Notes under the pieces: generated by a model
What the model was told of the DNA's origin: nothing
Databases searched by the model: none
The model's input: only the letters and a program-made list of their open reading frames with translations
NCBI GenBank assembly: GCA_913009315.1
Contig: CAJVZA010000046.1
Location: 1 to 16,237, forward strand
Origin: an uncultured Hippea sp.
Lineage (GTDB): Bacteria; Campylobacterota_A; Desulfurellia; JAADFJ01
Reading direction: 5' to 3'
Length of the DNA stretch: 16,237 nt
Shown here: in pieces, positions 1 through 16,237 of the stretch
Layout of the letters: the number at the start of each line of letters is the position of its first letter
Numbering within the stretch: the stretch's first letter is position 1
Made by a program: the position numbers and the translations under genes

Positions 1-125
1 GAGACAATGTAGAGATGACAGCTGAACTGATAAGTCCCGTTGCTCTTGAGAAAGAGACACGCTTTGCAATAAGAGAGGGTGGAAGAACAGTGGGCGCAGG
101 TGTTGTCAGTGAGATATTAAAGTAG
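1..125 (+). CDS. tuf: Elongation factor Tu, 3' end only (first tuf copy)
   Basis: This is the C-terminal end of EF-Tu, the GTPase that delivers aminoacyl-tRNA to the ribosome. Only the last 40 codons and a TAG stop are present; the first whole codon is GAC at base 3. The visible residues run from [10 protein letters not shown] to [10 protein letters not shown], which is the end of beta-barrel domain 3. They are identical, base for base, to the end of the complete tuf gene at 15039-16235, so about 358 codons lie outside the window. rpmG begins 13 bases after the stop with no promoter between them, so this copy probably heads the rpmG-tRNA-Trp-secE-nusG transcription unit. It may be a true second gene (the tufB position) or the same sequence seen twice through assembly of a repeat. 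Identity as tuf is certain; independence from the other copy cannot be shown here. Confidence 0.97.
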
Positions 126-127
126 GG
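1..127 (+). repeat. Left copy of a 127-base direct terminal repeat
   Basis: Bases 1-127 match bases 16111-16237 exactly. The repeat covers the last 41 codons of tuf (including the stop) plus two G residues. It touches the very first base of the window, so its true left extent is unknown. Length 127 is a common maximum k-mer in short-read assemblers, which suggests that this edge is an assembly-graph boundary at a duplicated tuf gene. Confidence 0.97.
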
Positions 128-138
128 GATGGTAGTAT

Positions 139-291
139 ATGCGCGATCTGTTTGCTCTGCAATGTCCTGATTGTAAAAGAAAAAACTATATGATTACAAG
201 GAACAAGAAATTAAAGAAGGAAAAAACTAACCTCAATAAGTATTGTCCTTTTTGTAAAAGACATACCTTGCACAAGGAGGTAAAAGCATAG
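139..291 (+). CDS. rpmG: 50S ribosomal protein L33
   Basis: This small gene encodes a 50-residue L33, a component of the large ribosomal subunit near the E site. The protein starts MRDLFALQCP and ends HTLHKEVKA. It keeps the zinc-ribbon form of the family, with two Cys-x-x-Cys pairs at C9/C12 and C36/C39, and the typical lysine-rich middle. The ATG at 139 is preceded by AGGGGA at 124-129, which overlaps the end of the upstream tuf stop. An ATG at 129 is in another frame and soon meets a stop. The TAG stop (289-291) overlaps the first two bases of the tRNA-Trp gene, so cutting the tRNA 5' end removes the rpmG stop codon from that transcript. L33 at this place, between tuf and tRNA-Trp, is known from Deltaproteobacteria and other phyla. 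Confidence 0.93.
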   Translation: MRDLFALQCPDCKRKNYMITRNKKLKKEKTNLNKYCPFCKRHTLHKEVKA

Positions 292-366
292 GTCAGTAGC
301 TCTAATTGGTAGAGCGTCGGTCTCCAAAACCGATGGTTGGGGGTTCGAGTCCCTCCTGGCCTACCA
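290..366 (+). tRNA. trnW: tRNA-Trp (anticodon CCA), discriminator A73
   Basis: A full cloverleaf folds by hand. The acceptor stem pairs 290-296 with 356-362 (A1-U72, with a U4-G69 wobble). The D stem is GCTC 299-302 with GAGC 312-315, and the D loop contains GG. The anticodon stem is 317-321 with 329-333, the loop is CTCCAAA, and the anticodon CCA lies at 324-326. The T stem is 339-343 with 351-355, with loop TTCGAGT. The CCA end is encoded at 364-366. The discriminator base at 363 is A, whereas bacterial tRNA-Trp normally has G73. The gene lies inside the tuf-rpmG-secE transcription unit and overlaps the rpmG stop codon by two bases, so it must be freed by RNase P and 3' processing. This location before secE is conserved in many bacteria. 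Confidence 0.96.
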
Positions 367-374
367 TAAAAATA

Positions 375-563
375 ATGAATACAATAAAAAATATAAAGAA
401 ATTTTTGTACAATTCGCGGGATGAGCTTTACAAGGTTGTCTGGCCGGATAAGAGGACTACTATAAATACAACTATTGCCGTTGTTGTATTATCTATCTTG
501 GTGTCAGCTCTGCTTAGTGTAGCCGATTATCTGTTTTCTTATCTGCTCAGGCTGGTTATATAG
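375..563 (+). CDS. secE: Preprotein translocase subunit SecE
   Basis: SecE clamps SecY in the inner-membrane SecYEG protein-export channel. This is the short single-membrane-span form of 62 residues, as in most bacteria outside the gamma group. The amphipathic N-terminal part carries the family motif ELYKVVWPDKRTT (residues about 17-29), followed by one hydrophobic span rich in V, L, A and I (about 34-60). I chose the ATG at 375. An open frame continues upstream to 306, but that would translate the tRNA-Trp. No Shine-Dalgarno sequence precedes the ATG: only the 8 bases TAAAAATA separate it from the tRNA CCA. After tRNA excision the secE message would be almost leaderless. The TAG stop directly abuts the nusG ATG. 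Confidence 0.95.
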   Translation: MNTIKNIKKFLYNSRDELYKVVWPDKRTTINTTIAVVVLSILVSALLSVADYLFSYLLRLVI

Positions 564-1109
564 ATGGCGTCTGTGCAGAGTAAAAAAAAATGGTATGCAC
601 TTCAGGTTCAGACAGGGTTTGAGAAACAGTTTATCAAGAACTTACCTAAAATATTGAAAGAAAAGGGATATGAGATAAACGAAGATGATCTCTTTTTGCC
701 TGTAGAGGAAGTCATAGATATACGCAAGGGAAAACGTACTGTCCGTGAACGATTTTTATATCAATCTTATCTGTTTATAAGAGCGGATATGACAGATAAT
801 CTGCAGAAAATATTAATAAGAATGCCTCGTGTAATCGGTATTATAGGAAAGCCGTATAAACCGAGCATGATTGATGAGAAAGAGATAGAGAGTATAAAAA
901 ATAGAATTGAGAAATCAAAAGATACTCCAAGACTTTCGGTAATCTACAAGATTGATGACAGAGTGAGGATCAAGGACGGTGCTTTTTCGGATTTCTCGGG
1001 AATTGTAGAATCTGTAGATGATGCAAAAGCAAGGTTAAAGATTATGGTAACAATTTTTGGAAGATCAACTCCGCTTGAACTGGATTATGATCAGGTTGAA
1101 AAGATATGA
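564..1109 (+). CDS. nusG: Transcription termination/antitermination factor NusG
   Basis: NusG binds the clamp of RNA polymerase, modulates pausing and, in other bacteria, links RNAP to Rho or to the ribosome. The 181-residue protein has the NGN domain (WYALQVQTGFE at residues 10-20, VEEVIDIRKGKR at 47-58) and a C-terminal KOW domain from about residue 128 (VRIKDGAFSDFSG, IFGRSTPLELD). Two usually conserved NGN spots differ: the common FPGY segment reads LYQSY (65-69), and the common TPGV reads MPRV (87-90). The ATG touches the secE stop (TAGATG) and has only a weak, distant AGG upstream, so reinitiation by ribosomes finishing secE is likely. Length and domain order are normal for a housekeeping NusG; a specialised paralogue such as RfaH is unlikely at this position. 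Confidence 0.96.
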   Translation: MASVQSKKKWYALQVQTGFEKQFIKNLPKILKEKGYEINEDDLFLPVEEVIDIRKGKRTVRERFLYQSYLFIRADMTDNLQKILIRMPRVIGIIGKPYKPSMIDEKEIESIKNRIEKSKDTPRLSVIYKIDDRVRIKDGAFSDFSGIVESVDDAKARLKIMVTIFGRSTPLELDYDQVEKI

Positions 1110-1118
1110 GGAGGATAG

Positions 1119-1541
1119 ATGGCTAAGGAAACAGCTGCACTTATTAAGCTGCAAATAGCTGCCGGAAAAGCAAATCCGGCTCCGCCGGTTGGGCCGGCAT
1201 TAGGGCAGCATGGTGTTAATATAATGGAGTTTTGTAAACAATTTAATGCTGCCACTCAAAAGCAGTCAGGTGATGTCATTCCGGTGATTATAACTGTTTA
1301 TAAAGATAAAAGTTTTACATTCATAACAAAACAGTCACCGGCTTCGCGATTAATACTTAAGGCTGCAGGACTTGAAAAGGGTTCTCCTGATAGTCTCAAG
1401 CAGAAGGTTGCGAAAATAACAGATGATCAGTTAACTCAAATTGCCGAAAAAAAGATGCCCGATCTCAATGCATATGACATTGATGCTGCAAAAAAAATTA
1501 TTGCAGGGACTGCGCGTAACATGGGCATTGAGATAGAGTGA
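1119..1541 (+). CDS. rplK: 50S ribosomal protein L11
   Basis: L11 binds the GTPase-associated region of 23S rRNA at the base of the L10-L12 stalk. It takes part in factor binding and in RelA sensing in species that have it. The protein is 140 residues, about the family norm. The N-terminal domain has the proline-rich [20 protein letters not shown] stretch (20-39), the region linked with thiostrepton-type antibiotics, and the C-terminal rRNA-binding domain ends [11 protein letters not shown]. The start ATG has a strong ribosome binding site, GAGGAGGA at 1108-1115, which overlaps the nusG stop. Only 9 bases separate nusG and rplK, so there is no room for a separate L1-binding leader here. Confidence 0.98.
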
Positions 1542-1563
1542 TTTTATAAAGGGGACTTTAATT

Positions 1564-2262
1564 ATGAAAAAACGAGGAAAGAGATATCAAAAATCTGCCG
1601 AACTAATTGAGAAAGATGCTATATATAACCTGGATGAAGCTATTGCTCTTTTGAAAAAGATGCAGTTTTCGAAATTCGATGAGACGGTCGAACTGGTTCT
1701 GAGACTTGGAGTAAATCCTAAAAAATCAGATGAAGCAGTTAGGGGCAGCTGCATATTGCCTGCAGGTTCAGGTAAACAGACCAGAGTAGTTGCATTTTGT
1801 AAAGGTGAAAAAATTAAAGAAGCTACAGAAGCCGGTGCCGATTATGTAGGTGGAAAGGAGCTGGCAGATAAAATAGCTGCCGGGTGGCTTGATTTTGATC
1901 GTGTCGCTTCAACGCCGGATATGATGTCTGTCGCGGGAAAGCTTGGACGTATATTGGGACCAAGAGGCATGATGCCGAATCCTAAGGTTGGTACGGTTGC
2001 TCAGGATATAGGAAATATTGTAAAACAGTTGAAGTTAGGGCAGTTGGCTTTCAGAATTGACAAGGGTGCAAATCTTCACTCTGCGATTGGCAGAGTATCA
2101 TTTACTGATGAGAATCTAAAGAAAAATATCTCATCTTTTATAAGTGCTGTTAAAAAGGCCAAGCCTGTATCATCTAAGGGAACTTACATTAAATCTGCTT
2201 ATATATGTGCTACTCATTCTCCAAGCGTTAAGCTTGATGTAAAAAGTTTGCAAGAGTCATAG
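1564..2262 (+). CDS. rplA: 50S ribosomal protein L1
   Basis: L1 forms the mobile L1 stalk next to the E site and in many bacteria also represses its own L11 operon. The 232-residue product has the L1 signature GKLGRILGPRGMMPNPKVGT at 125-144 and the usual VRGSCILPAGSGK segment (59-71). The start is supported by AAAGGGGA at 1548-1555 with a spacing of 8 bases. It lies 22 bases after rplK and 24 bases before rplJ, so it is co-transcribed with both. I see no obvious L1 operator: the 9 bases before rplK are too short, so any autoregulatory site would have to lie within the coding sequence or further upstream. Confidence 0.98.
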   Translation: MKKRGKRYQKSAELIEKDAIYNLDEAIALLKKMQFSKFDETVELVLRLGVNPKKSDEAVRGSCILPAGSGKQTRVVAFCKGEKIKEATEAGADYVGGKELADKIAAGWLDFDRVASTPDMMSVAGKLGRILGPRGMMPNPKVGTVAQDIGNIVKQLKLGQLAFRIDKGANLHSAIGRVSFTDENLKKNISSFISAVKKAKPVSSKGTYIKSAYICATHSPSVKLDVKSLQES

Positions 2263-2286
2263 GGAACGGTTTGAAATGGAGGAAGA

Positions 2287-2796
2287 ATGAAAAAAAGTGA
2301 AAAAGTAGCATGGATTAATAACTGGAAATCCGGTTTAAACGATAACGATGCGTTAGTTTTTTTCGACTATCAGAATGTTGATGCAAATAGTATCGCGAGC
2401 GTAAGACGTGATCTTAGAGACAAGGGGGTCAGATTTGCCGTTATAAAAAATTTGCTTTTCAAGCTGGCAATAAGCGGAAGCAGACTGGAAGCGGTAAACG
2501 ATCTTCTGAAAAATGCCAATGCAGTTGGAATACATAGCGATCCCATTGAGCTTGCTAAAATTTCAACAGAAATAAATAAACGATATAAGCTGGCAATAAA
2601 AGGCGGCTATGCCGATGGTGCCAAATTGTCGAAACAGGATGTTATAGAGTTGTCGAAACTGCTTTCAAGAGAGCAGCTGCTTGCAAAACTTCTTTCTACG
2701 CTTAATGCGCCTGTTGGAGGATTTGTATCGGCATTATCCGGTATTATAAGAAATTTAGTATACACAATAGATGCCATAAAAAACAAAATTAATTAG
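2287..2796 (+). CDS. rplJ: 50S ribosomal protein L10
   Basis: L10 is the stalk base protein that anchors the L7/L12 dimers to 23S rRNA beside L11. The 169-residue protein has the N-terminal rRNA-binding domain (MKKSEKVAWI start, LVFFDYQNVDANSIASVRRD, VIKNLLFKLA) and a C-terminal helix (about 135-169, NAPVGGFVSALSGIIRNLVY) that would carry the L7/L12 dimers. A strong GGAGGAAGA (2279-2287) precedes the ATG. Many bacteria have a long L10-leader RNA before this gene. Here the rplA-rplJ gap is only 24 bases, so a classical leader of that kind is absent from the intergenic space. Confidence 0.96.
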   Translation: MKKSEKVAWINNWKSGLNDNDALVFFDYQNVDANSIASVRRDLRDKGVRFAVIKNLLFKLAISGSRLEAVNDLLKNANAVGIHSDPIELAKISTEINKRYKLAIKGGYADGAKLSKQDVIELSKLLSREQLLAKLLSTLNAPVGGFVSALSGIIRNLVYTIDAIKNKIN

Positions 2797-2805
2797 GAGG
2801 AAAAG

Positions 2806-3180
2806 GTGGCTATAACAAAGGAAGAAGTAGTAAGTTTTATAGAGAATATGAGTGTTTTGGAGCTTTCAAATTTCGTAAAGGAGCTGGAGGATCATTTTGG
2901 TGTTACTGCTGCGGCACCGGTAGCCGTTGCAGCCGCAGCCGCCCCCGGTGAACAGGAGGCAGAGGAAAAAACGGAATTTGATGTGGTTTTGAAAGAAATC
3001 GGACAGAAAAAGATCGCTGTAATTAAGGCTGTAAGGGCTGCTACAGGTTTAGGTCTTGCTCAATCAAAAGAGATTGTTGACAAGGCTCCTTCTACAATCA
3101 AAGAAAAATTAAGCAAAGAAGATGCTGAAAACTTAAAGAAATCATTAGAAGAAGCCGGTGCAGTTGTTGAACTTAAATAG
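2806..3180 (+). CDS. rplL: 50S ribosomal protein L7/L12
   Basis: L7/L12 is the multi-copy stalk protein that recruits translational GTPases such as the EF-G and EF-Tu encoded at the end of this window. The 124-residue acidic protein has the N-terminal dimerisation helices (1-33), a flexible Ala/Pro-rich hinge (34-52, [17 protein letters not shown]) and the globular C-terminal domain with [15 protein letters not shown] (70-84). The start codon is GTG at 2806. It is preceded by a perfect AGGAGG (2795-2800) overlapping the rplJ stop, which fits the expected start [15 protein letters not shown] on one of the most heavily translated genes is slightly unusual. A strong terminator-like hairpin lies 87 bases downstream. 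Confidence 0.98.
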
Positions 3181-3216
3181 ATATACAGATTCCTGCTTTG
3201 GTTAAGATAAGTTTTA

Positions 3217-3222
3217 TATAAT
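3217..3222 (+). promoter_or_regulatory. Possible -10 element upstream of rpoB
   Basis: The hexamer is a perfect TATAAT within an A/T run. The best -35-like string, TTGGTT at 3198-3203, is only 13 bases away, which is too close, and nothing good lies at 16-18 bases. If used, the transcript would start near 3230 and run into the hairpin at 3268-3301. In A+T-rich spacer DNA such a match can occur by chance. Confidence 0.22.
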
Positions 3223-3267
3223 AGAATGAATCGGGGCATAGAAGATTGATAGTGTCGTCCCGTCGAA

Positions 3268-3301
3268 CAAAGAGGCAATTGAAATTGTCTCTTTGTTTTT
3301 T
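3268..3301 (+). terminator. Rho-independent hairpin between rplL and rpoB, probable partial terminator
   Basis: CAAAGAGGCAAT (3268-3279) pairs with ATTGTCTCTTTG (3284-3295) over 12 base pairs with one G-U, closing a TGAA loop. A run of six T follows at 3296-3301. The T run lies only on the + strand side, so it acts on rightward transcription. No good promoter is evident downstream, and rpoB must be expressed, so this most likely attenuates read-through from the ribosomal-protein genes rather than stopping it. Confidence 0.85.
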
Positions 3302-3302
3302 G

Positions 3303-3322
3303 TCTGTGCATATCTGTGCATA
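3303..3322 (+). repeat. Perfect tandem duplication of a 10-mer
   Basis: TCTGTGCATA occurs twice, head to tail, at 3303-3312 and 3313-3322, directly after the terminator T run and upstream of rpoB. The 10-base period places the two copies about one helical turn apart, on the same DNA face. The second copy runs into CATAAT (3319-3324), a -10-like hexamer. It may be a protein site or part of a weak promoter, or a simple slippage duplication. Confidence 0.75.
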
Positions 3323-3394
3323 ATAATAGTGGGTAAGCTATGAGATTAGCTGCTCATATGGATATAAATTAATAAACACCTTTTCGGAGGATAA

Positions 3395-6300
3395 ATGGCA
3401 CATCTGTTATCGTCGGAATATAGACTAAGAGTAAATTTTTCTTCAAAGGAAAATAGATTTGAAATGCCTGAGCTGCTTAAAACTCAAATAAATTCATATA
3501 AGCAGTTTTTGCAGTTAAATACTCCTCATGTAAATGTCCCTCAAGAGAAACGGGAAAATATCGGTTTGGAGGCTCTCTTCAGGCAATTTTTTAATATAGA
3601 GAACGAAAGAAGCAGCTGGAGTCTGAAATATCTGGGATATACGCTGGAGGAACCGAAATATAGTGTGAAAGATTGCCTTGAGAAATCTTTGAACTACGCA
3701 GGTGCGCTGCAAGTTCGGCTAAGATTGAATTTGTGGGATACGGATCCCGACACAGGGAAGAGAACCGGTATAAAGATTGCAAAAGAACAAAAGGTCTATA
3801 TAGGAGATATTCCTTTTGTGACCGAAAACGGCAGTTTTATAATGAATGGCGTTGAAAGGGTTTTTGTTATGCAGCTTCACAGATCACCCGGTGTTATTTT
3901 TAAGCGCATAAAATCGGAGGAAATACTGAGTGAATATCTGTTTTCAGCTCAGGCGATACCTGAGCATGGAAGCTGGATGGAGTTTGAAACAACAAGGAAA
4001 AATGTCTGTTACCTAAAAATAGACAAGAGAAAACGTTTTCCGGTAGCTCTGTTTCTTAATGCAATAGGCTTTTCGAATTCCGATATATTAAGGAGATTCT
4101 ATAAAACCGTATCAATTAAAAAAGAAGAAGAACGTTTTTTTGCGAAAGGTGATGTAAAGGGACTGATTCTCGACAATGATATAATAGCGGAAGAAAAACT
4201 AATTGCCAAATCCGGTTCAAAAATTACAAGAAAATTAATAAAGCAGTTGAATGATCCCGATATCTATTACCCGATAGCCGATGTTTCTCTTTATGGAAAC
4301 TGTATTCTCGAAGACGTGCAATTGGATGATGACATAACAATTAACGCAGGTGAGATAATAACACCGGAAGGTCTTGCGTTGCTGAAGAAATCCAGCTGTA
4401 GTTTTGATCTTGCGCTTGTTAAGGACGAGAAGCAGCTGATGCTCAACAGTATAAATACTGCGAAAGTTTTGATTAAGAAACTTAAAGGCAGCATTAATGA
4501 GACGATGAGCGACGAAGATTTGGCAACCATCTTTATTTATCATAATCAGCGTCCCGGAGAACCGGTTTCACCTCAAGAGGCAAGGCAGTTCTTAAACAAC
4601 CTTTTTTTTGAGGGGCCGTCATATGATTTGTCTGTTTATGGACGTATCAAGGTCAATAGGCGTTTAGGATTGGATATACCGACAAATAACACGCATTTAA
4701 CCAAAGAAGATGTAGTTAGAACGGTTGAATATCTCGTTTTGCTTATTAACGGAAAAGGGTTTTTAGATGACATAGACAGCCTTGCCAACAGAAGAATAAG
4801 AAGAATAGATGAAATGCTTAGCGTTCAGCTGAAACCCACCATGCTTTCGATGCAGAAAAGCATAAGGGATAAAATAGGTTTTTTAGAAGCAGAAACAGCA
4901 TCACCTTCAATGTTAGTGAATGCAAATGCATTTACCTCTGTTTTTAAATCCTTTTTTGAAAGCAACCAGTTGTCGCAATTTTTAGATCAGATTAATCCTC
5001 TTTCCGAGGTTAGCCATAAAAGAAGAATTTCTTCATTGGGTACCGGAGGTTTGACAAGAGAGAGAGCAGGATTTGAGGTTAGAGATGTAAACCCAAGCCA
5101 TTATGGGAGAATTTGTCCGATTGAGACTCCGGAAGGTCCTAATATCGGTCTTATAGTAGCTCTTGCAACTTATGCCAAGGTCAATCAATATGGATTCATT
5201 GAAACTCCGTATAAAAAGGTTGTTAACGGTGTTGTTACGGATAAAATCGTCTATCTTTCTTTCAGCGACGAGTACGATAAGATTATCTGTACCGCTAAGG
5301 CTAAAATAGACGGCAGAAAGCTTATTGGAAAAATTGAGGCAAGAAAAAACGATGATATAATTTTGATTTCTCCGGAAAAGGTTGATTATATGGATATAAA
5401 CCCTCAGCAGCTTCTTGGGGTAAGTGCATCCTCAATTCCTTTTGTCGGTCATGATGATGCCAATAGAGCGCTTATGGGCTGCAATATGCAGAGACAGGCT
5501 GTTCCGCTTGTCAAACCGTCAAGCCCGCTGGTCGGTACCGGAATGGAATCCGTAATAGCAAAAAGTTCAGGAAGAATGTTGATGGCGAGGCGAAGCGGAG
5601 AGGTTGTATATGTCGATAGTGCTATGATTGTTATACAAACTTCTGACGATGAGAATGGAAAATCATTGTATGATATTGACGTATACAGACTTAATCAATA
5701 TGCAAGATCAAACCAGAATACGGTATTTGTAAATATTCCTATAGTAAAAAAGCATGATATGGTAAAAAAAGGTCAGGCAATTACCAACGGTCCTTCGACA
5801 GACAATGGAGAGTTGGCTTTGGGGCAGGATCTTATGGTAGCCTTTGTGCCATGGAGAGGGTATAACTATGAGGATGCAATTACTATATCGGAACGTGTGG
5901 TAAAAGAAGATCTTATGAGCTCTATTCATATGGAAACATATGAATGTATAGAGCATGATACTAAGCTTGGGCCTGAGGAATTTACCTCGGATGTTCCGAA
6001 CAATGCCAAAGAACTTTTGAGAAACCTTGATGATAACGGAATTGTAAGGGTCGGTTCATATGTTAAGCCGGCGGATATTTTAGTTGGTAAGGTTACGCCG
6101 AAGGTTGAGACAAGCTATTCTCCGGAGGAAAAGCTGTTTCAGGCTATATTTGGCGAAAAAGCAAAAAATGTTTCGGATTCTTCGCTTAAAGTACCTCCGG
6201 GAATTAGTGGTATTGTTACTGATGTAAAGGTTTTTGTAAGAAGAGGCGTTGAGAAAGGCGAAAAACGTCTTGAGCTTGAAGATTATGAAAAAAAGCAGGA

Positions 6301-7516
6301 ATATGCTTTGCTTGAAAGAAAAAAGAAAATTATACATCATTTGATTGCATTATCAATTGCAGCTGTTGCGCAGGGTGCAACAGCTGCGAATTCAGTAAAA
6401 AGAAAAGGCGCATATATAATAAAATCAGCAGATATTATTACAAAAGAGAAACTGCTTAAGTTGAAATATTCAGAACTTTCTCATATTTCTACGACTGATG
6501 ACGCTCTTAACAGTAAAATAAAATCGGTTCTGACTCACTACAATGAAATGATTGATGCCGCCGAGGCATCTTATCGGAAAAATGTTTCTTCAATTGAGTC
6601 CACTGAAGAACTTGCAACCGGAATTCTGAGAATTGCTAAGGTTACTATTGCTCATAAAAGACATCTTCAGGTTGGAGATAAACTTGCCGGTCGGCATGGA
6701 AACAAAGGGGTTGTCTCGCGTATCTTACCGGAAGAAGACCTGCCTTTTATGGAGGACGGCAAGCCTGTAGATATTGTTTTAAATCCTTTGGGCGTGCCGA
6801 GCAGAATGAATGCAGGTCAGATATTAGAAACTCATCTCGGTATGGCGGCAAAAGGTATAGGTAAGCTGATAGACGAAGCTCTAAAGAGATATGATCTTGA
6901 CCGCGTAAAAGGAATTATGCTTTCAACCGTTTCCAATACCGATGAAGATACAAAAAAATATATCGACTCTCTCTCAAATGAGGAGCTTATGCTGTATGCT
7001 GATGATTGGCGCAACGGAGCGTTTATGGCTACGCCGGCTTTTGACGGTGCTTCAGAGAAAGATGTTGACGAACTTATGGCACTTGCCGGAATTCCGGCAG
7101 ACGGCAAATATACTCTATATGACGGTATCACCGGAGAAGCTTTTGATCAGAAAATTATGGTTGGTATTGTTCATATTCTTAAACTTGATCATATGGTTGA
7201 AGATAAGGTTCATGCGCGATCGGTCGGTCCCTATTCTCTCGTTACGCAGCAGCCGCTTGGCGGAAAAGCTCAGTTTGGAGGCCAGCGTTTTGGTGAAATG
7301 GAGGTGTGGGCGCTTGAAGGATATGGAGCGGCATACAATCTTCAGGAGGTGCTTACACTGAAATCGGATGATATAGAAGGACGAAGCAGGTCATATGAGG
7401 CTATTGTAAAGGGCAAACCGGTGCCGCTCGGAGGATTGCCGGAGTCATTTAATGTTCTGGTAAAAGAACTTCAAAGTTTAGGCCTTTCGGTAGAACTTCT
7501 GAAAGAGACGAGGTAA
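3395..7516 (+). CDS. rpoB: DNA-directed RNA polymerase subunit beta
   Basis: This is the beta subunit of the RNA polymerase core. It has 1373 residues, slightly longer than the 1342 of E. coli, and follows the proteobacterial layout with both usual lineage insertions. Hallmarks in order are: the rifampicin pocket QLSQFLDQINPLSEVSHKRR (525-544), TRERAGFEVRDVNPSHYGR, ICPIETPEGPNIGLI, the catalytic-region GDKLAGRHGNKG, and the C-terminal KAQFGGQRFGEMEVWALEGYG. The residues equal to E. coli D516, H526 and S531 are wild type (D531, H541, S546), so the main rifampicin positions look sensitive. Oddities are I533 at the E. coli N518 position, T550 in place of the proline in LGPGG, and DIDSLANRR (459-467) where nearly all bacteria have DIDHLGNRR. 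The ATG at 3395 has CGGAGG at 3385-3390. rpoC follows after 11 bases. Confidence 0.99.
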   Translation: MAHLLSSEYRLRVNFSSKENRFEMPELLKTQINSYKQFLQLNTPHVNVPQEKRENIGLEALFRQFFNIENERSSWSLKYLGYTLEEPKYSVKDCLEKSLNYAGALQVRLRLNLWDTDPDTGKRTGIKIAKEQKVYIGDIPFVTENGSFIMNGVERVFVMQLHRSPGVIFKRIKSEEILSEYLFSAQAIPEHGSWMEFETTRKNVCYLKIDKRKRFPVALFLNAIGFSNSDILRRFYKTVSIKKEEERFFAKGDVKGLILDNDIIAEEKLIAKSGSKITRKLIKQLNDPDIYYPIADVSLYGNCILEDVQLDDDITINAGEIITPEGLALLKKSSCSFDLALVKDEKQLMLNSINTAKVLIKKLKGSINETMSDEDLATIFIYHNQRPGEPVSPQEARQFLNNLFFEGPSYDLSVYGRIKVNRRLGLDIPTNNTHLTKEDVVRTVEYLVLLINGKGFLDDIDSLANRRIRRIDEMLSVQLKPTMLSMQKSIRDKIGFLEAETASPSMLVNANAFTSVFKSFFESNQLSQFLDQINPLSEVSHKRRISSLGTGGLTRERAGFEVRDVNPSHYGRICPIETPEGPNIGLIVALATYAKVNQYGFIETPYKKVVNGVVTDKIVYLSFSDEYDKIICTAKAKIDGRKLIGKIEARKNDDIILISPEKVDYMDINPQQLLGVSASSIPFVGHDDANRALMGCNMQRQAVPLVKPSSPLVGTGMESVIAKSSGRMLMARRSGEVVYVDSAMIVIQTSDDENGKSLYDIDVYRLNQYARSNQNTVFVNIPIVKKHDMVKKGQAITNGPSTDNGELALGQDLMVAFVPWRGYNYEDAITISERVVKEDLMSSIHMETYECIEHDTKLGPEEFTSDVPNNAKELLRNLDDNGIVRVGSYVKPADILVGKVTPKVETSYSPEEKLFQAIFGEKAKNVSDSSLKVPPGISGIVTDVKVFVRRGVEKGEKRLELEDYEKKQEYALLERKKKIIHHLIALSIAAVAQGATAANSVKRKGAYIIKSADIITKEKLLKLKYSELSHISTTDDALNSKIKSVLTHYNEMIDAAEASYRKNVSSIESTEELATGILRIAKVTIAHKRHLQVGDKLAGRHGNKGVVSRILPEEDLPFMEDGKPVDIVLNPLGVPSRMNAGQILETHLGMAAKGIGKLIDEALKRYDLDRVKGIMLSTVSNTDEDTKKYIDSLSNEELMLYADDWRNGAFMATPAFDGASEKDVDELMALAGIPADGKYTLYDGITGEAFDQKIMVGIVHILKLDHMVEDKVHARSVGPYSLVTQQPLGGKAQFGGQRFGEMEVWALEGYGAAYNLQEVLTLKSDDIEGRSRSYEAIVKGKPVPLGGLPESFNVLVKELQSLGLSVELLKETR

Positions 7517-7527
7517 GGAGAAAAGCT

Positions 7528-10500
7528 ATGTATACAGTATTAAAAGCTAAGCCAAAAACATCGAATGATTTCGATGCTATAAGAATAAAAATAGCATCTC
7601 CCGAGGAGATAAAAGATTGGAGTAACGGAGAAGTTAAAAAGGCAGAAACAATCAATTATAGAACTCTGAAACCTGAACCCGATGGTCTTTTTTGTGCTAA
7701 AATCTTTGGACCGATTAAAGACTATGAATGTCTCTGCGGTAAATACAAAGGGATGAAATTCAGAGGAACTGTGTGTGAACGATGTGGTGTTGAGATCACG
7801 GAATCAAGAGTGAGAAGACATAGAATGGGTCACATTGAACTGGCAGTTCCGGTTGCGCATATCTGGTATCTCAGTTCTATACCAAGTATTATTTCGATAC
7901 TGACTGGAATAAAAGCAAAAGATCTCGAGAGAGTCGTTTATTATCAGGCATATATTGTTACCAACAGTAAGCTCAAAGAGATTTCTGTGAGTGATATTAT
8001 AGCAGAGTCTGAATACGAGACTGTTAAAGAAGAATATGGCGGCAACTTTGAAGCGGATATGGGTGCAAAATCATTGTCTAAAATTTTGGCAAATATGGAT
8101 CTTGATTCTTTGAGATCTACTCTTATAACTGCCCAAAATGCTACATCATCTGTTGTCACAAAGAAAAAATTGTCGAGAAGACTCAAAATAGTCGAATATT
8201 TTATACGTTCTGAGAACTGTCCCGAATGGATGATTCTTTCTGTTCTGCCGGTTATTCCTCCGGATTTGAGGCCTTTGGTTGCGCTTGAAGGAGGCAGATT
8301 TGCCTCGTCGGATCTGAATGATTTATATAGACGCGTTATAAATAGAAACAACAGACTCAAAAAACTTATTGAATTAAAGGCTCCCTCGATAATCTTGCGT
8401 AATGAAGAGAGAATGCTGCAGGAGTCGGTTGATTCTCTATTTGATAATGGCAAGAGAAAGCAGGTAGTGAGACGTTCAAACAGGCTTCCACTTAAATCTT
8501 TGAGTGACAATCTGAAGGGAAAACAGGGAAGATTCAGAAGAAATTTATTGGGTAAAAGGGTGGATTATTCAGGGAGATCCGTTATTGTTTCCGGTCCTGA
8601 TCTTTCGTTTGATCAGTGCGGTCTTCCCAGAGAGATGGCTTTAGAGCTTTACAGGCCTTTCGTATATCATCTGCTTGAAGAAGAAGGATATGCGACAACA
8701 TTAAAGGCGGCTAAGCATCAGGTTGAGCGTCGCGAGGAACATATCTGGGAAATTCTGGAAAGAGCAGTCAAGGAACACCCCGTTTTTCTCAATAGAGCTC
8801 CAACACTTCACAGATTATCTATACAAGGTTTTTTCCCGGTGTTAACCAATGATAAAGCAATACATCTTCATCCGCTGGCATGTGCGGCGTTTAATGCCGA
8901 TTTTGACGGAGACCAGATGGCTGTTCATCTGCCTTTATCTGATGAAGCTCAGGCGGAAGGTATAATGTTGATGCTTGCTCATAACAATGTTGTTTCTCCA
9001 TCAAACGGAGGAATTATAGCAAAGCCTTCTCAGGATATGGTTTTGGGCATCTACTATATTACAAAACCGCTGCCCGGTGCAAAAGGCGAAAGCATGATTT
9101 TTGCCGATAAGCAGGATGCAATTTGTTGGTACAACGCTTCTCATATTGCGGTAAATGCGTCCATAAAAGTAAGAATAGCCGGTAAAATTGTTGATACAAC
9201 TGTTGGAAGACTGCTAGTTTCCAATCTGCTTCCCGATGATTTTCCATTTTCACAAGTCAACAAGTTGATAAAGAAAGCGGATATTGCAGCTATTGCAGAC
9301 AAGGTATATGAGGAATATGGAAATATCAGTACGGTAAGTTTTCTGGATAATATAAAAGATTTAGGATTCGAAATGGCGGCACTTTCAGGCAGTTCAATTT
9401 CTATAAAAGATATGATTATGCCGAAAAGAAAACAGGAAATCCTGGAAAATTCACAAAAAAAGGTTGATGAGATCGTTACGCAGTATAGAGACGGCTTGTT
9501 GACCGAAAGAGAGCGATACAATAAGGTAATTGATATCTGGAGTAGTGCTACCTCAAAGATCAGCGTGGAAACGATGAGAGATCTTGGAAATGATCAAAAT
9601 GGATTTAATCCTATCTTCATGATGAAGGATTCAGGAGCACGGGGAAGCGAGGAACAGATAAGACAAATGTCGGGTGTTAGAGGTCTTATGATAAAACCTT
9701 CCGGTGATATTGTTGAGCTTCCTATAAAATCGAATCTTCGCGAAGGTATGAGTGTTCTTGAATATTTTACATCCTCTCATGGAGCAAGAAAAGGTCTTTC
9801 CGATACCGCGTTAAAAACCGCAAATGCCGGATATCTTACACGAAAATTAATTGATGTAGCTCAAAATGTTGTAGTCAGGGAAATGGATTGCGGAACCACT
9901 AACGGTATAGAAGTCGATCAGATAACCATAGCCGGAACTGTTATTGAGAATCTTTATGAGCGCATTGTCGGACGTGTGGCGGCGGAAAATATAATAAACC
10001 CTTTCGATAAACAGGAGTTTGTACAATCCGGATCGGTTATAACTAAAAAATTGGCAAGAAAAATTGTAGATTTGAATATAAATAAGATAAAAATTCGTTC
10101 AGCTCTTACCTGCAGAGCGGAAAACGGCATCTGCGTAACATGCTACGGACATGATCTTACTACCGGTAAACTTGTTGAGATTGGAACGCCTGTCGGAATA
10201 ATTGCCGCTCAGTCAATCGGAGAGCCCGGAACGCAGCTTACGCTCAGAACATTTCATGGCGGCGGTACTGCAAGTATGGATAACGAAAAGGTCTTTGCGA
10301 GTACCGGTAAGGCCGGATTTGTCAGATTTCATAATATAAAAACAGCCGTTAACTCCAGGGGAGATAAGGTTGTTCTGTCAAGACGTGATGCGATGATGCT
10401 GATAACGGAGCCGTTTCTTGTAGTGTCTGATGCTGCATCAATCCGGATAGATGAGGATTTCAGAAGCTACACGTATAATATAAAAGATAAAGAATATAAG

Positions 10501-12033
10501 ATTTCAAAAGCGAGTCTTCTCAATCAGTCCGATTTTGCACATGGCGGTGAGACTGCAATAGGAAAATTGAAAATTCTTGTAGAAAAATCATGTTCAGTTA
10601 AAAAAAATACCATTATAATTGAAAGAGTGCTTGAGGTATGGGATATACCTAATAAAATAACTTATGGTGCAAAGATACATGTAAACGATGGAGATGCTCT
10701 TATCAGATTTTTAAAAGCGTCAAAAGCAGGACGAGTTGAAATTTGGGTGCTGGATGGTGATCAAATGGTGCGTGCTGCAGAAGATACGGGCAATAAAGTT
10801 GAGAGATACGGAACGCATATCTTTATTGTAGATGAAGATGACTTAATCGTTGAGCGTTATTATGTGCCGGTTGGATCCAGACTGTCCGTAAAAGACGGAG
10901 ACAACGTCGCAAGAGGTGATCTTTTGGCATATAAAGATGAGAATGAGCTTGAGAAGTTTATAAATGACGAGAATCTATATCAGTCAACAGTAATGCTGGC
11001 TGATTGGGATGCTTACTCATCTTATATTCTTTCATCCCAAAATGGTACGGTTACTTTTAAAGATATTGTTGTCGATAAAACATTGAAGGATGAAGTTGAT
11101 CGTATTACCGGTTTGAGAAGCAGAACAATAGTTGAATCGGTTGATATCAAACTATTCCCCAGAATTGTAGTTAAAGATGAATCGGGCAGCGATGAGTATT
11201 TTCTGCCGCCCAGAACCATATTGCTTAAACAGATGGGTGATTATGTGAAAGCGGGAGACGTATTAGGCAAGATTCCTAAAGAGACCGCAAGAACGAGTGA
11301 TATTACAGGAGGATTGCCGAGAGTTGTCGAGATTGTGGAGGCGAAATCTCCTAAAATGCCTACCGTCGTGTCCGAAATTAGCGGCGAGGTGAGCTACGGC
11401 AAGGAGATAAGAGGCAAAAAAACCGTGTATGTGACGAGTTCCGGCGGAATGGAGAGGGAGTATGTAATTCCACGCAATAGAAGAATTCAGGTATATCCTC
11501 ACGATCATATTGAAGCCGGTGAGCCGATAACCGATGGTGTTGTAAACCCGGCTGATATTCTAAGAATTCTTGGAGAAAAGCAGCTTGCAAAGCATCTTGT
11601 GAGCGAGGTTCAGCAGGTTTATAAAATACAGGGCGTCGATATTAACGATAAGCATTTCGAGGTAATTGTTCGTCAGATGTTGAAGTGGGTCACAGTTGAG
11701 AATCCAGGTGAAAGCGGTCTGATTCAGGGAGAGATAATCAACAGATACAAATTTGAGCAGCTCAACAGAAAACTTGTTGGTGAAGGCAAAAGGCCGGCTT
11801 TGGCAAGAATTTTATTCTTGGGCATAACAAGAGCTTCTCTTGCGACCGATAGTTTTGTTTCTGCTGCGTCATTTCAGGAAACAAAGCGCATTCTGACAGA
11901 TGCGAGCATCAGGGCGGCGACCGATAATTTGGAAGGCCTGAAGGAGAATGTGATTGTCGGAAGACTTATACCTGCCGGTACCGGTCAGAAGCGTCTGGAA
12001 AGTGTTAATGTGATTTTACAAGATAATGCTTGA
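7528..12033 (+). CDS. rpoC: DNA-directed RNA polymerase subunit beta'
   Basis: This is the catalytic beta' subunit. The Mg-binding loop is NADFDGDQM with D458, D460 and D462. The N-terminal zinc site is C68, C70, C83 and C86; the second zinc site uses the Cys of REMDCGT together with CRAENGICVTC. GKRVDYSGRSVI and LNRAPTLHRLSIQ are intact, and the trigger loop begins TQLTLRTFHGGG (R907, H910) and resumes at DITGGLPR (1258-1265). The protein has 1501 residues against 1407 in E. coli. The excess lies in the trigger-loop insertion (about 917-1250), while the C-terminal tail is shorter. The ATG at 7528 follows TAAGGAG at 7514-7520, which overlaps the rpoB stop. The stop codon overlaps a TTGACA promoter element for the next operon. 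Confidence 0.99.
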   Translation: MYTVLKAKPKTSNDFDAIRIKIASPEEIKDWSNGEVKKAETINYRTLKPEPDGLFCAKIFGPIKDYECLCGKYKGMKFRGTVCERCGVEITESRVRRHRMGHIELAVPVAHIWYLSSIPSIISILTGIKAKDLERVVYYQAYIVTNSKLKEISVSDIIAESEYETVKEEYGGNFEADMGAKSLSKILANMDLDSLRSTLITAQNATSSVVTKKKLSRRLKIVEYFIRSENCPEWMILSVLPVIPPDLRPLVALEGGRFASSDLNDLYRRVINRNNRLKKLIELKAPSIILRNEERMLQESVDSLFDNGKRKQVVRRSNRLPLKSLSDNLKGKQGRFRRNLLGKRVDYSGRSVIVSGPDLSFDQCGLPREMALELYRPFVYHLLEEEGYATTLKAAKHQVERREEHIWEILERAVKEHPVFLNRAPTLHRLSIQGFFPVLTNDKAIHLHPLACAAFNADFDGDQMAVHLPLSDEAQAEGIMLMLAHNNVVSPSNGGIIAKPSQDMVLGIYYITKPLPGAKGESMIFADKQDAICWYNASHIAVNASIKVRIAGKIVDTTVGRLLVSNLLPDDFPFSQVNKLIKKADIAAIADKVYEEYGNISTVSFLDNIKDLGFEMAALSGSSISIKDMIMPKRKQEILENSQKKVDEIVTQYRDGLLTERERYNKVIDIWSSATSKISVETMRDLGNDQNGFNPIFMMKDSGARGSEEQIRQMSGVRGLMIKPSGDIVELPIKSNLREGMSVLEYFTSSHGARKGLSDTALKTANAGYLTRKLIDVAQNVVVREMDCGTTNGIEVDQITIAGTVIENLYERIVGRVAAENIINPFDKQEFVQSGSVITKKLARKIVDLNINKIKIRSALTCRAENGICVTCYGHDLTTGKLVEIGTPVGIIAAQSIGEPGTQLTLRTFHGGGTASMDNEKVFASTGKAGFVRFHNIKTAVNSRGDKVVLSRRDAMMLITEPFLVVSDAASIRIDEDFRSYTYNIKDKEYKISKASLLNQSDFAHGGETAIGKLKILVEKSCSVKKNTIIIERVLEVWDIPNKITYGAKIHVNDGDALIRFLKASKAGRVEIWVLDGDQMVRAAEDTGNKVERYGTHIFIVDEDDLIVERYYVPVGSRLSVKDGDNVARGDLLAYKDENELEKFINDENLYQSTVMLADWDAYSSYILSSQNGTVTFKDIVVDKTLKDEVDRITGLRSRTIVESVDIKLFPRIVVKDESGSDEYFLPPRTILLKQMGDYVKAGDVLGKIPKETARTSDITGGLPRVVEIVEAKSPKMPTVVSEISGEVSYGKEIRGKKTVYVTSSGGMEREYVIPRNRRIQVYPHDHIEAGEPITDGVVNPADILRILGEKQLAKHLVSEVQQVYKIQGVDINDKHFEVIVRQMLKWVTVENPGESGLIQGEIINRYKFEQLNRKLVGEGKRPALARILFLGITRASLATDSFVSAASFQETKRILTDASIRAATDNLEGLKENVIVGRLIPAGTGQKRLESVNVILQDNA

Positions 12034-12058
12034 CAAATCATAATTTTTATCGTATTTT
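12030..12058 (+). promoter_or_regulatory. Predicted sigma70-type promoter for rpsL-rpsG-fusA-tuf
   Basis: A perfect -35 box TTGACA (12030-12035) overlaps the rpoC TGA stop. Seventeen bases later comes TATTTT (12053-12058), matching four of six positions of the -10 consensus. The expected start site near 12065 gives a leader of about 24 bases before the rpsL start. The ideal spacing and position just ahead of the str genes make it credible. It would let S12, S7, EF-G and EF-Tu be made independently of the polymerase operon. Confidence 0.6.
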
Positions 12059-12077
12059 AACAATCGTTTCAAAAAAT

Positions 12078-12083
12078 GGGAGG
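12078..12083 (+). promoter_or_regulatory. Ribosome binding site that decides the rpsL start
   Basis: GGGAGG lies only 2 bases before an ATG at 12086 but 5 bases before the GTG at 12089. The second spacing is the normal one, and the GTG gives the usual S12 N-terminus MPTINQ. The ATG would add one extra residue and give MVPTINQ. Confidence 0.65.
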
Positions 12084-12088
12084 ATATG

Positions 12089-12463
12089 GTGCCAACTATT
12101 AATCAGTTGATAAGAAAGGGAAGAAAGAAGTTAAAGAAAAAGAGTAAGACGCCTGCATTAAACGGATCACCTCAGAAAAGAGGTGTATGCACAAGAGTGT
12201 ATACGACAACACCTAAGAAGCCGAACTCTGCATTGAGAAAAGTTGCAAAGGTGAAGTTGACCAGCGGTTTTGAGGTGATTAGCTATATACAGGGAGAAGG
12301 TCATAATCTTCAGGAACATTCTATCGTACTGGTAAGAGGCGGCAGAGTTAAGGATTTGCCAGGTGTCAGGTATCATGTTGTCAGAGGTGCGCTTGATACT
12401 GCAGGCGTGGAAGGAAGAAAAAACGGACGCTCGAAATATGGCGCCAAGGCATCAAAAGAGTAA
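12089..12463 (+). CDS. rpsL: 30S ribosomal protein S12
   Basis: S12 lies at the decoding centre and controls translational accuracy. With the GTG start at 12089 the protein has 124 residues beginning [14 protein letters not shown], the family norm; an ATG one codon upstream (12086) is possible but sits too close to the GGGAGG. Conserved segments are [20 protein letters not shown] (28-47), GHNLQEHS and [12 protein letters not shown]. The streptomycin-linked lysines are wild type at K43 and K88 (E. coli K42 and K87 in the usual numbering), so the ribosomal target looks sensitive. The aspartate that RimO methylthiolates in E. coli is present (D89). The gene heads the str group; rpsG follows after 15 bases. 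Confidence 0.97.
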
Positions 12464-12478
12464 TAATTAGGGGTTTTT

Positions 12479-12949
12479 ATGTCAAGAAGAAGAAGAGCTG
12501 TCAAGAGAAAAATTGCGGCTGATAAAGTTTACAACAGTTTACTTGTTAGCAAGATAATAAATGGATTTATGAAAGACGGAAAGAAAAGTATTGCGGCAGG
12601 AGCTCTGTATAGTGCTGCAAAGATTGTGGAAGAGAAAACCAAAAAAGATTTTCTTGAGGTACTTATTTCTGCTGTCGATAATATTAAACCGAAGATAGAG
12701 GTTAAACCCAGACGTGTCGGAGGTGCCACTTACCAGGTTCCTATTGAGGTTTCCTCCAGAAGACAGAACAGTCTCGCAATCAGATGGCTTGTCCAATATG
12801 CAAGAACACGCGGTGAAAAGGGCATAACCGAAAGAGTTGCCAACGAAATTATCGAATCGTACGAAAAGCGCTCTAAATCAGTTAAAAAGAGAGAAGATGT
12901 GCATAAAATGGCTGAAGCGAACAGAGCGTTTGCGCATTATCGGTGGTAA
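12479..12949 (+). CDS. rpsG: 30S ribosomal protein S7
   Basis: S7 is the primary assembly protein of the 30S head and lines the mRNA exit/E-site region. The 156-residue protein begins MSRRRRAVKRKIAADKVYNS and contains PRRVGGATYQVPIEV (about 78-92), the beta-hairpin region, then RRQNSLAIRWLVQYAR; it ends ANRAFAHYRW. Length and motifs are standard. The ATG has AGGGG at 12469-12473 with a 5-base spacing. It sits between rpsL (15 bases) and fusA (9 bases). In E. coli S7 represses this operon by binding the rpsL-rpsG gap. Here that gap is only 15 bases, so that control element is not evident. Confidence 0.98.
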   Translation: MSRRRRAVKRKIAADKVYNSLLVSKIINGFMKDGKKSIAAGALYSAAKIVEEKTKKDFLEVLISAVDNIKPKIEVKPRRVGGATYQVPIEVSSRRQNSLAIRWLVQYARTRGEKGITERVANEIIESYEKRSKSVKKREDVHKMAEANRAFAHYRW

Positions 12950-12958
12950 ATTAAAAGT

Positions 12959-15028
12959 ATGTCTAATAAGCTGAAAAACTTAAGAAATATAGGTATCGTC
13001 GCTCATATTGATGCAGGGAAAACAACAACGACAGAGCGAGTACTTTATTATACAGGTGCAACATACAAATCAGGTAATGTTGATGACGGCAATACTGCAA
13101 CCGATTGGATGGAGCAGGAAAGAGAACGCGGTATTACCATTACATCTGCAGCCGTAAGCGCATTATGGAAAGATTGTACCATAAACATAATCGACACACC
13201 GGGGCATGTTGATTTTACGGTTGAGGTGGAAAGATCGCTCAGAGTTTTAGACGGTGTCGTGGCAGTATTTACTGCGGTTGACGGTGTTGAGCCTCAGTCT
13301 GAAACGGTTTGGAGGCAGGCGGATAAATATCATGTTCCGAGGATTGCATTTGTAAATAAGATGGACAGAGTGGGAGCTGATTTTTTTGAAGTTGTTAAAG
13401 ATGTTACCAACAAACTGGGGGCAGTTCCGTTAGTTGTGCAGATACCTGTAGGCAATGAAGATAGCTTCAGAGGCGTTGTCGATCTAATAGAGCAGAAGGC
13501 TATTATATGGGATTCTGATATTCTTGATGCCAAATATGATATTGTAGATATTCCGGATGATCTAAAGGGAGATGCGGGTCGCCGCAGGATTGAGCTTATT
13601 GAAAAGCTTGCCGATTTTGATGATGATCTTATGGAAAGTTATCTTGCTGAAAAAGAGATAGATAATGAAGCAATATATAAAGCAATAAGAAAAGGAACTA
13701 TTGACTTAAAAATCGTTCCTATGCTGTGCGGCAGCGCATTTAAAAATAAAGGTGTTCAGCCTCTGCTTGATGCGGTAGTAAAATATTTACCTTCTCCGCT
13801 CGATATACCTCCGGTTAAAGGAACCGAAAGAATTGATGGAGGTAAAACAGAGATAAGAAAAGCCGATGACGATGAGCCGTTTTGCGGGTTGATTTTTAAG
13901 ATTATGAGTGATCCTTATGTGGGAAAACTTTCATATATAAGAGTTTATTCCGGCAAAATTAGTGCAGGTTCGTATGTTTATAATCCTATTAAAAATAAAA
14001 AAGAGCGAATAGGAAGAATTCTTCGTATGAGCGCAAATAAGCGTGAGGATATAGATTGTGCCTTTGCAGGGGATATCTGCGCGATTGTCGGTCTTAAACA
14101 CAGCGGCACGGGAACCACTCTGTGCGATTCCGGGCATCCCATAATATTGGAAAAAATGCAATTTCCCGATCCGGTAATCAGTATGGCTATAGAGCCTGCA
14201 ACGAAAGCCGATCAGGATAAGATGGGTATCGCATTGTTTAAACTTGCAGAAGAAGATCCGACATTTACAGTTAAGTTTGATGATCAAACTAATCAAACCA
14301 TTGTATCGGGAATGGGAGAATTACATCTTGATATTATTGTTGATAGAATGAGACGTGAATTTCATGTAAATGCCAAAACCGGAATGCCTCAGGTTGCCTA
14401 CAAAGAAACGATAAAAAAATCGGTTATTCAGGAAAGTAAATTTATCAGACAGACCGGAGGGCATGGTCAATATGGTCATGTTAAAGTGCAGATTGATCCG
14501 GTTGACAGAGGCAACGGGATAGAGTTTGTTAACCGTATTGTAGGAGGTGTTATACCCAAAGAGTATATTCCTGCAATCGAAAAGGGTATTAGAGATGCAG
14601 CTCTTAGCGGTGTCGTTGGAGGATATCCTGCAACAGATATCAAGGTTGCATTGTTTGACGGATCGTATCATGAAGTTGATTCCTCAGAGATTGCATTTAG
14701 AATGGCAGGTTCTATGGCCTTTAAAGAGGGAATGAGAAAGGCGAATCCTGTCATACTGGAACCTGTGATGGCGGTTGAGATTAACACGCCCTCCGACTAT
14801 CTTGGAGATGTTATTGGTGATATTAATTCAAGACGCGGACAGATTGTTGAAACAGGGGAAAGAAAAAATATTAAGATAATTGATGCTATGATTCCGCTTT
14901 CAGAGATGTTTGGATATGCTACGGTTTTAAGATCGATAACTCAGGGTAGAGGCACCTATACTATGCGGTTTGATCATTATACCGAAGTACCGAAATCAAT
15001 AGCAGAAAAGATTGTCGGCAGCAAATAA
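12959..15028 (+). CDS. fusA: Elongation factor G
   Basis: EF-G is the GTPase that drives translocation and, with RRF, splits ribosomes. The 689-residue protein has all five G motifs: AHIDAGKTT (15-23), ERERGIT (54-60), DTPGHVDF (79-86), NKMD (133-136) and GSAFKNKG (258-265). Domains II-V follow. Domain IV includes GGHGQYGHV and the tip loop [11 protein letters not shown] with H571, equal to the E. coli histidine H583 used in translocation, so the factor looks active. Instead of the VHDG or VHEG usual before switch I it reads [13 protein letters not shown] (39-51), a form seen in some paralogous EF-G classes. No clear Shine-Dalgarno sits before the ATG; translation is probably coupled to rpsG, which stops 9 bases upstream. 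The tuf binding site overlaps its TAA stop. Confidence 0.97.
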
Positions 15029-15034
15029 GGAGGT
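15026..15034 (+). promoter_or_regulatory. Consensus ribosome binding site that decides the tuf start
   Basis: TAAGGAGGT is a full complement of the usual 16S rRNA 3' end. It begins with the fusA stop codon and lies 4 bases before the ATG at 15039. It rules out a longer reading from a TTG at 15012 inside fusA. Confidence 0.9.
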
Positions 15035-15038
15035 AGCT

Positions 15039-16235
15039 ATGGCAAAGGAAAAATATATTAGAACGAAACCGCATCTCAACATTGGAACTATCGGTCATGT
15101 TGATCACGGAAAAACAACACTGACAGCGACTATAACAAAACTGCTTGCCAGTAAAGGCCAGGCTGAGTTCAAGGCTTACGATCAGATTGATAATGCGCCT
15201 GAAGAGAGAGAAAGAGGTGTTACAATCAACACCGCTCATGTTGAGTATGAGACGGACATAAGGCATTATGCCCATATAGACTGTCCAGGGCATGCAGATT
15301 ACATAAAGAACATGATTACCGGTGCCGCTCAGATGGATGGAGCGATACTTGTGGTATCGGCCGCAGACGGTCCTATGCCCCAGACAAGAGAGCATATCCT
15401 GCTTGCAAGACAGGTTGGTGTTCCGGCAATGGTGGTTTTTCTCAACAAAACGGATATGGTTGATGATCCTGAACTTGTTGAGCTTGTAGAAGAAGAGATA
15501 AGAGAACTCTTGTCCAAGTATGATTATCCCGGAGACGATATTCCGATAATCAAAGGATCCGCCCTTAAAGCGCTTGAAACTCCGGATGGACAGGAGAATG
15601 AGAATACAAAAGCAATCTATGATCTTATAGCTGCAATTGACAGCTATATTCCTGAACCCAAAAGAGATATCGATAAACCGTTTCTTATGCCTATCGAGGA
15701 TATCTTTACAATCTCAGGCCGCGGTACCGTTGTAACCGGCAGAGTTGAAAGAGGAATTCTCAAACCGGGTGAAGATGTCGAGATGGTAGGTTTCAGACCG
15801 ACCAGAAAGACGGTAGCCACATCTCTTGAGATGTTCAGAAAGATACTTGATGAAGGAAGAGCAGGCGACAATGTCGGAGTTCTGCTCAGAGGAATAAAGA
15901 AGGAAGAGGCATTAAGAGGAATGGTACTGGCAAAACCGGGATCCATTACCCCTCATACAAAGTTCAAGGCTCAGGTATATGTCCTGACAAAAGATGAGGG
16001 AGGAAGACATACTCCGTTTTTCCCGGGATACCGCCCTCAGTTCTATGTCAGAACAACCGATGTCACAGGCAGCATAGAGCTTCCCAAAGGTGTAGAAATG
16101 GTCATGCCGGGAGACAATGTAGAGATGACAGCTGAACTGATAAGTCCCGTTGCTCTTGAGAAAGAGACACGCTTTGCAATAAGAGAGGGTGGAAGAACAG
16201 TGGGCGCAGGTGTTGTCAGTGAGATATTAAAGTAG
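15039..16235 (+). CDS. tuf: Elongation factor Tu, complete (second tuf copy)
   Basis: EF-Tu carries aminoacyl-tRNA to the A site. The 398-residue protein starts [20 protein letters not shown] and contains GHVDHGKT (19-26), ERERGVT with T62, DCPGH with the catalytic histidine H85, NKTD (136-139) and GSAL (173-176), followed by beta-barrel domains 2 and 3. NKTD replaces the more usual NKCD, a conservative change. The start at 15039 is fixed by a perfect TAAGGAGGT; nine further in-frame codons reach back into fusA to a TTG at 15012 but are not expected to be used. It closes the rpsL-rpsG-fusA-tuf operon. The final 127 bases of the window repeat its opening, so the downstream neighbour (often rpsJ) and any terminator are not visible. 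Confidence 0.99.
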
Positions 16236-16237
16236 GG
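16111..16237 (+). repeat. Right copy of the 127-base direct terminal repeat
   Basis: This is identical to bases 1-127 and reaches the last base of the window. It covers the last 41 codons of the complete tuf (including the stop) plus two G residues. In the left copy the sequence goes on into rpmG after this point; here it ends, which fits a repeat boundary where two tuf copies acquire different downstream sequence. Confidence 0.97.

Follow-up and report, generated by a model that had tools for sequence, protein, structure and literature searches.

The window analyzed here, 16,237 bp of DNA from an uncultured Hippea sp. (assembly GCA_913009315.1, contig CAJVZA010000046.1), constitutes the entire contig C46 of a draft genome, designated G000, of 1.74 Mb in 96 contigs (completeness 87.6%, estimated contamination 0.02%). 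It carries a run of transcription and translation genes, closes with a complete gene for elongation factor Tu (tuf), and has identical ends. We conclude, with near certainty, that the window is a linear piece of chromosome and that its matching ends are an artefact of assembly arising from two merged tuf genes. An earlier note on this DNA, made from its sequence without database searches, had likewise read the ends as two collapsed chromosomal tuf genes and not as a circle, and that reading is now supported by an exit from tuf into rpsJ on another contig, by an assembler overlap length of 127, and by the two-tuf arrangement of six related genomes.

Direct comparison established that bases 1-127 are identical to bases 16111-16237 and that no longer terminal match is present. 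An exact match of this length is far beyond chance. The tuf stop codon TAG occupies 16233-16235, and the repeat therefore runs two bases past the stop; both the exact repeat and its stopping point had been described correctly in the earlier note. Closing the window on its repeat yields a pseudo-circle of 16,110 bp.

The genome was then searched for tuf, which was found in three places only, namely at the two window ends and at an end of contig C49. The reverse strand of C49 opens with the identical 127 bases and diverges from the window at base 128, after which follow rpsJ, rplC, rplD, rplW, rplB, and the rest of the S10-spc-alpha operons, the genes being named by the order and length of their reading frames. 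The last 127-mer of tuf thus has two continuations, into rpmG in the window and into rpsJ on C49. The second of these is the path out of tuf, "into rpsJ or another gene," that had been predicted for a two-locus arrangement.

The length of the repeat was examined by comparing the 70 readable ends belonging to 32 small contigs (C57-C88) and to C46, C49, and C55, scoring overlaps of at least 20 bases. Nine end overlaps were obtained, eight of exactly 127 bases and one of 100. Three of the eight involve C46 or C49, and five lie at junctions unrelated to tuf. Since the same length recurs where tuf plays no part, 127 is a property of the assembly, that is, the assembler k or overlap length, and not the length of a biological repeat; the earlier note had remarked that 127 is a common assembler k-mer. 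Fragmented genomes of relatives also break at tuf, with overlaps of 91 (G001), 127 (G002 and G016), and 151 bases (G014 and G017), and breaks at tuf in further genomes left overlaps of 140, 141, and 151 bases.

Six relatives (G004, G006, G008, G009, G012, and G015) have both tuf copies on one contig and in direct orientation. The spacing between the copies is 16,068, 16,111, 16,121, 16,147, 16,184, and 16,191 bp, compared with 16,110 bp for the pseudo-circle. The copies are identical throughout the coding region in five of the six, with five differences in G006; the match begins 2-19 bp upstream of the start codon, and the copies part in the stop codon or at most 9 bp beyond it. The true repeat in these genomes is accordingly the whole tuf gene, about 1.2 kb. 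The tuf genes of the six are only 72-76% identical to that of the window, and full-length tuf genes from the other genomes in the comparison are about 72-86% identical to it. Copies agree far better within than between genomes, which is the pattern of concerted evolution. The complete tuf of the window could be a consensus of both copies, but this is probably harmless given their identity through the coding region in five of six relatives.

These results are best explained by a Hippea chromosome on which two near-identical, directly repeated tuf genes are separated by about 16.1 kb, the gene order being [tRNAs]-tuf1-rpmG-trnW-secE-nusG-rplKAJL-rpoBC-rpsL-rpsG-fusA-tuf2-rpsJ onward, with gene conversion presumably keeping the copies alike. 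A de Bruijn assembler operating at k = 127 would merge the copies into a single path that leaves tuf toward either rpmG or rpsJ. The merged tuf would stay joined to fusA, and the contig would be cut at the exit fork, each exit contig retaining the last 127-mer. C46 would for that reason begin and end with the same 127 bases and look circular. For G000, we infer both the upstream junction of tuf1 and the identity of the copies beyond the last 127 bases.

The features of the window, all on the + strand, comprise housekeeping genes of transcription and translation, secE, and a tRNA-Trp gene, and are as follows.
1..127, +, 3' end of tuf (last 40 codons, stop codon, and 2 bases), preceding rpmG; read as the trimmed end of chromosomal copy tuf1 (exact identity with 16111-16237; same 127-mer at the end of contig C49)
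139..291, +, rpmG, ribosomal protein L33, exit 1 of the fork (NCBIfam NF001764 / TIGR01023 above cut-off)
290..366, +, tRNA-Trp(CCA) (ARAGORN; Rfam RF00005)
306..563, +, secE, start codon uncertain, the longest frame overlapping tRNA-Trp (TIGR00964 above cut-off)
564..1109, +, nusG (TIGR00922)
1119..1541, +, rplK, L11 (TIGR01632)
1564..2262, +, rplA, L1 (TIGR01169)
2287..2796, +, rplJ, L10 (NF000955)
2806..3180, +, rplL, L7/L12 (TIGR00855)
3395..7516, +, rpoB (TIGR02013)
7528..12033, +, rpoC (TIGR02386)
12086..12463, +, rpsL, S12 (TIGR00981)
12479..12949, +, rpsG, S7 (TIGR01029)
12959..15028, +, fusA, elongation factor G (TIGR00484)
15039..16235, +, complete tuf; lying after fusA, it is positionally tuf2/tufA, but collapsed with tuf1 (TIGR00485, Pfam EF-Tu domains, position in relatives)
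16111..16237, +, 3' end of the complete tuf, the 127-mer fork with exits rpmG (window 128 onward) and rpsJ (C49) (sequence identity)

A genuine circle of 16,110 bp (a plasmid, a phage, or an excised element) with rpoBC and translation genes on it would account for the exact match of the ends, and two RefSeq records of the same plan, described below, are labelled circular plasmids. However, the identical end sequence also runs into rpsJ on C49, so that the path through the repeat is not unique, and the length of the repeat is that of the assembler k. The relatives carry the interval chromosomally at like length. Furthermore, only housekeeping genes are present; the open reading frame list, profile searches, and a tRNA search revealed no replication, mobility, or phage genes among the genes of the window. 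A circle of this kind is exceedingly improbable. There is also hardly any chance that the fork reflects a mixture of two strains, with one exit belonging to another organism of the metagenome. In favor of a mixture, G000 is a fragmented and incomplete draft, but its estimated contamination is only 0.02%, and rpmG and rpsJ are the neighbors expected of tuf1 and tuf2 on one chromosome from the relatives.

Certain observations weigh against two single chromosomal tuf genes in G000. No contig entering tuf1 from the tRNA side was found in the readable part of the genome, leaving the fourth arm of the fork missing. In relatives, tuf1 is preceded by tRNA-Thr(GGT), tRNA-Gly(TCC), and tRNA-Tyr(GTA), and none of these three anticodons occurs among the tRNA genes found in readable G000, nor was a counterpart found there of the DNA beside the tRNA cluster in G001. 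A strict unitig assembler should, in addition, also have cut tuf from fusA if the tuf1 arm were assembled and identical, and the window is uncut at that point. The tuf1 arm would therefore have had too little coverage, have diverged at a point further upstream, or have been resolved through paired reads. Finally, the whole unit may conceivably be tandemly duplicated in some members of the population.

Such a duplication, a head-to-tail repeat of the 16.1-kb unit made by recombination between tuf genes, would render the fusA-tuf-rpmG and fusA-tuf-rpsJ links both real. Tandem duplications can arise from tuf genes in direct repeat, and the failure to see a tRNA-tuf1 contig favors this explanation. 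No duplication is seen in the six relatives that have the two tuf copies on a single contig, and none is needed, as one tuf1 and one tuf2 yield the same graph. Moreover, the absent tRNA genes imply missing DNA and not a missing locus. tRNA-Tyr is indispensable, and the DNA upstream of tuf1 must therefore exist and lie outside the readable bin. Loss of these tRNA genes from view is expected if the piece was unbinned or is among contigs that cannot be read at their ends; the ends of eight contigs of 2.0-2.9 kb (C89-C96) read as N, and the tRNA-tuf1 piece may be one of them. We consider the tandem duplication highly improbable, and retain two single tuf genes on one chromosome as the explanation. 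The upstream contig was also sought with the tuf1-adjacent DNA of G001 and G002; the matches were internal to C55 and C34, with differing neighborhoods and no tRNA cluster found, and these candidates were rejected. Separately, untrimmed Illumina adapter was observed within the last 200 bases of many G000 contig ends, for example at 1-47 and 14043-14094 of L138 and at the start of C49. A 30-base adapter sequence had 12 exact matches in G000, and adapter was present on 13 of the compared contig ends.

Three further contigs, each from another genome, close on themselves inside tuf. G017:C22 (16,299 bp, overlap 151) closes at the 3' end of tuf, and its end is also common to C27 of that genome, in parallel with C46 and C49. 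G327:C55 (16,779 bp, overlap 127) closes in mid-tuf, and G382:C16 (17,116 bp, overlap 140) in the 5' third of the gene. Near the end of the latter, at 15570-17080, are two successive partial tuf matches, so that this circle may have been closed through a chimera of the two copies. Among viral contigs of IMG/VR, 37 carry tuf and none has secE to rpoC adjoining, so no tuf-closed rif-str circle was found there; an RpoB scan of IMG/VR with peptide patterns that were few and weak likewise found no relative. Several IMG/VR contigs (L179, L181, L203-L206, L208, and L209) begin or end inside tuf, as expected where assemblies break at duplicated tuf, and these may be host DNA at a provirus edge. In a megabase-scale contig of the Pseudomonas genus (G422:C1), tuf was detected only in dispersed fragments, partly inverted, around 5104667, 6498346, 6541488-6542394, and 6547488, which resembles a scaffolding error.

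Records of the same plan were found among deposited plasmids. One of them, reached by searching PLSDB for tuf, is NC_009037.1, plasmid pSbal03 of Shewanella baltica OS155, a circular record of 16,762 bp whose 12 annotated genes are rpoB, rpoC, rpsL, rpsG, fusA, tuf, secE, nusG, rplK, rplA, rplJ, and rplL, and nothing else. Like the window, it is a tuf-to-tuf interval with a single tuf, and a replication gene is not among its annotated genes. In contrast to the window, it is gammaproteobacterial, rpmG is unannotated, tRNA-Trp was not found between tuf and secE, and the record was deposited as a complete plasmid without terminal overlap. An RpoB search of PLSDB led to NZ_CP011111.1, the "plasmid unnamed" of Pseudomonas chlororaphis PCL1606 (16,587 bp), which is again a circular tuf-to-tuf interval with a single tuf, although gammaproteobacterial and deposited as a plasmid. 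In genomes of the genus of Pseudomonas sp. 8Z, the tuf-tuf spacing is 16,517-16,610 bp wherever both full copies are listed on one contig.

A Shewanella chromosome was sought for a similar check of spacing among 369 gammaproteobacterial genomes, but the closest match to the probe reached only 83% identity, so the chromosomal check of pSbal03 rests on published work. Among proteobacteria, rpoB was reported on plasmids in only four strains, OS155, PCL1606, Serratia liquefaciens ATCC 27592, and Salmonella Senftenberg, and it is chromosomal in six other S. baltica strains (PMC6403173). The OS155 chromosome was stated to lack the genes of pSbal03, the presumed site of insertion being marked there by an EF-Tu gene beside the ribosomal protein cluster (PMC3478194). 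This gap matches what would remain if an assembler had removed a tuf-tuf interval. On paper, a genuine excision would give the same picture, and for that reason we infer, rather than observe, that the pSbal03 and PCL1606 records are very probably false plasmids created during assembly. It is conceivable that the direct tuf repeats allow the 16-kb rif-str unit to be excised or duplicated in some cells, and that the window, pSbal03, and the PCL1606 circle record the only rpoBC cluster in a genuine extrachromosomal or tandem state; we judge this very unlikely.

The 44-kb plasmid record NC_021742.1 of S. liquefaciens ATCC 27592 spans one rRNA operon to another (murB-birA-coaA-tuf...rpoC...purD-purH) and was closed across truncated 16S and 23S genes (1-2627 and 40115-44107); it is likely another false plasmid, here bounded by rRNA operons. 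RpoB is matched by 66 plasmid records in PLSDB, and in 54 the match covers 80% or more of the protein length. Whole chromosomes, or pieces of 100-150 kb that bear essential genes, make up many of these, for example twelve records from Clostridioides difficile, of which the one inspected has a tuf-rpoBC-tuf cluster. Since RpoB-matching records are so often chromosomal, rpoB is a good flag for mislabelled plasmids.

Tests of circularity that rely on matching ends turn the two-tuf arrangement into a false plasmid of 16-17 kb. Two such records stand in RefSeq and PLSDB as complete plasmids, very probably entries made by this artefact on which others have built. pSbal03 was the second argument put forward for lateral transfer of the EF-Tu-flanked rpoB cluster as an island (PMC3478194), and "strA" on pSbal03 was reported as the most abundant mobile resistance gene in effluents and in lake and wastewater sediments (PMC5812944). 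The only pSbal03 reading frames of at least 260 codons are rpoB, rpoC, fusA, and tuf. The other frames are too short for an aminoglycoside phosphotransferase of the usual length, and pSbal03 therefore holds none. The gene rpsL, an essential ribosomal gene, has the old name strA, and the reported "strA" is very probably rpsL labelled by that name. A simple filter for circles that carry tuf together with rpoB or fusA and lack a replication gene would remove such records. A literature search of partial coverage, and hence weak as evidence of absence, found no earlier description of a tuf-collapse pseudo-circle. The importance of the finding lies in its consequence for databases.

The biology itself is ordinary, as both the operon arrangement and the gene pair are already known. 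Concerted evolution of tuf duplicates was reported across 29 orders (PMC6053082, which cites Lathe and Bork 2001). Those duplicates resemble the identical or near-identical copies within the genomes of the window's relatives; in G000, by comparison, the identity of the copies is visible for the last 127 bases only. The tuf-flanked cluster has also been documented (PMC8046335), and its gene order is the one found here: a Thr-Tyr-Gly-Thr set of tRNA genes stands ahead of the upstream tuf, rpmG accompanies secE (a placement that the paper infers for the proteobacterial ancestor), and rpsJ follows the downstream tuf. The cluster of G000 does not differ from it in substance, save that it has been split over contigs by the tuf repeat.

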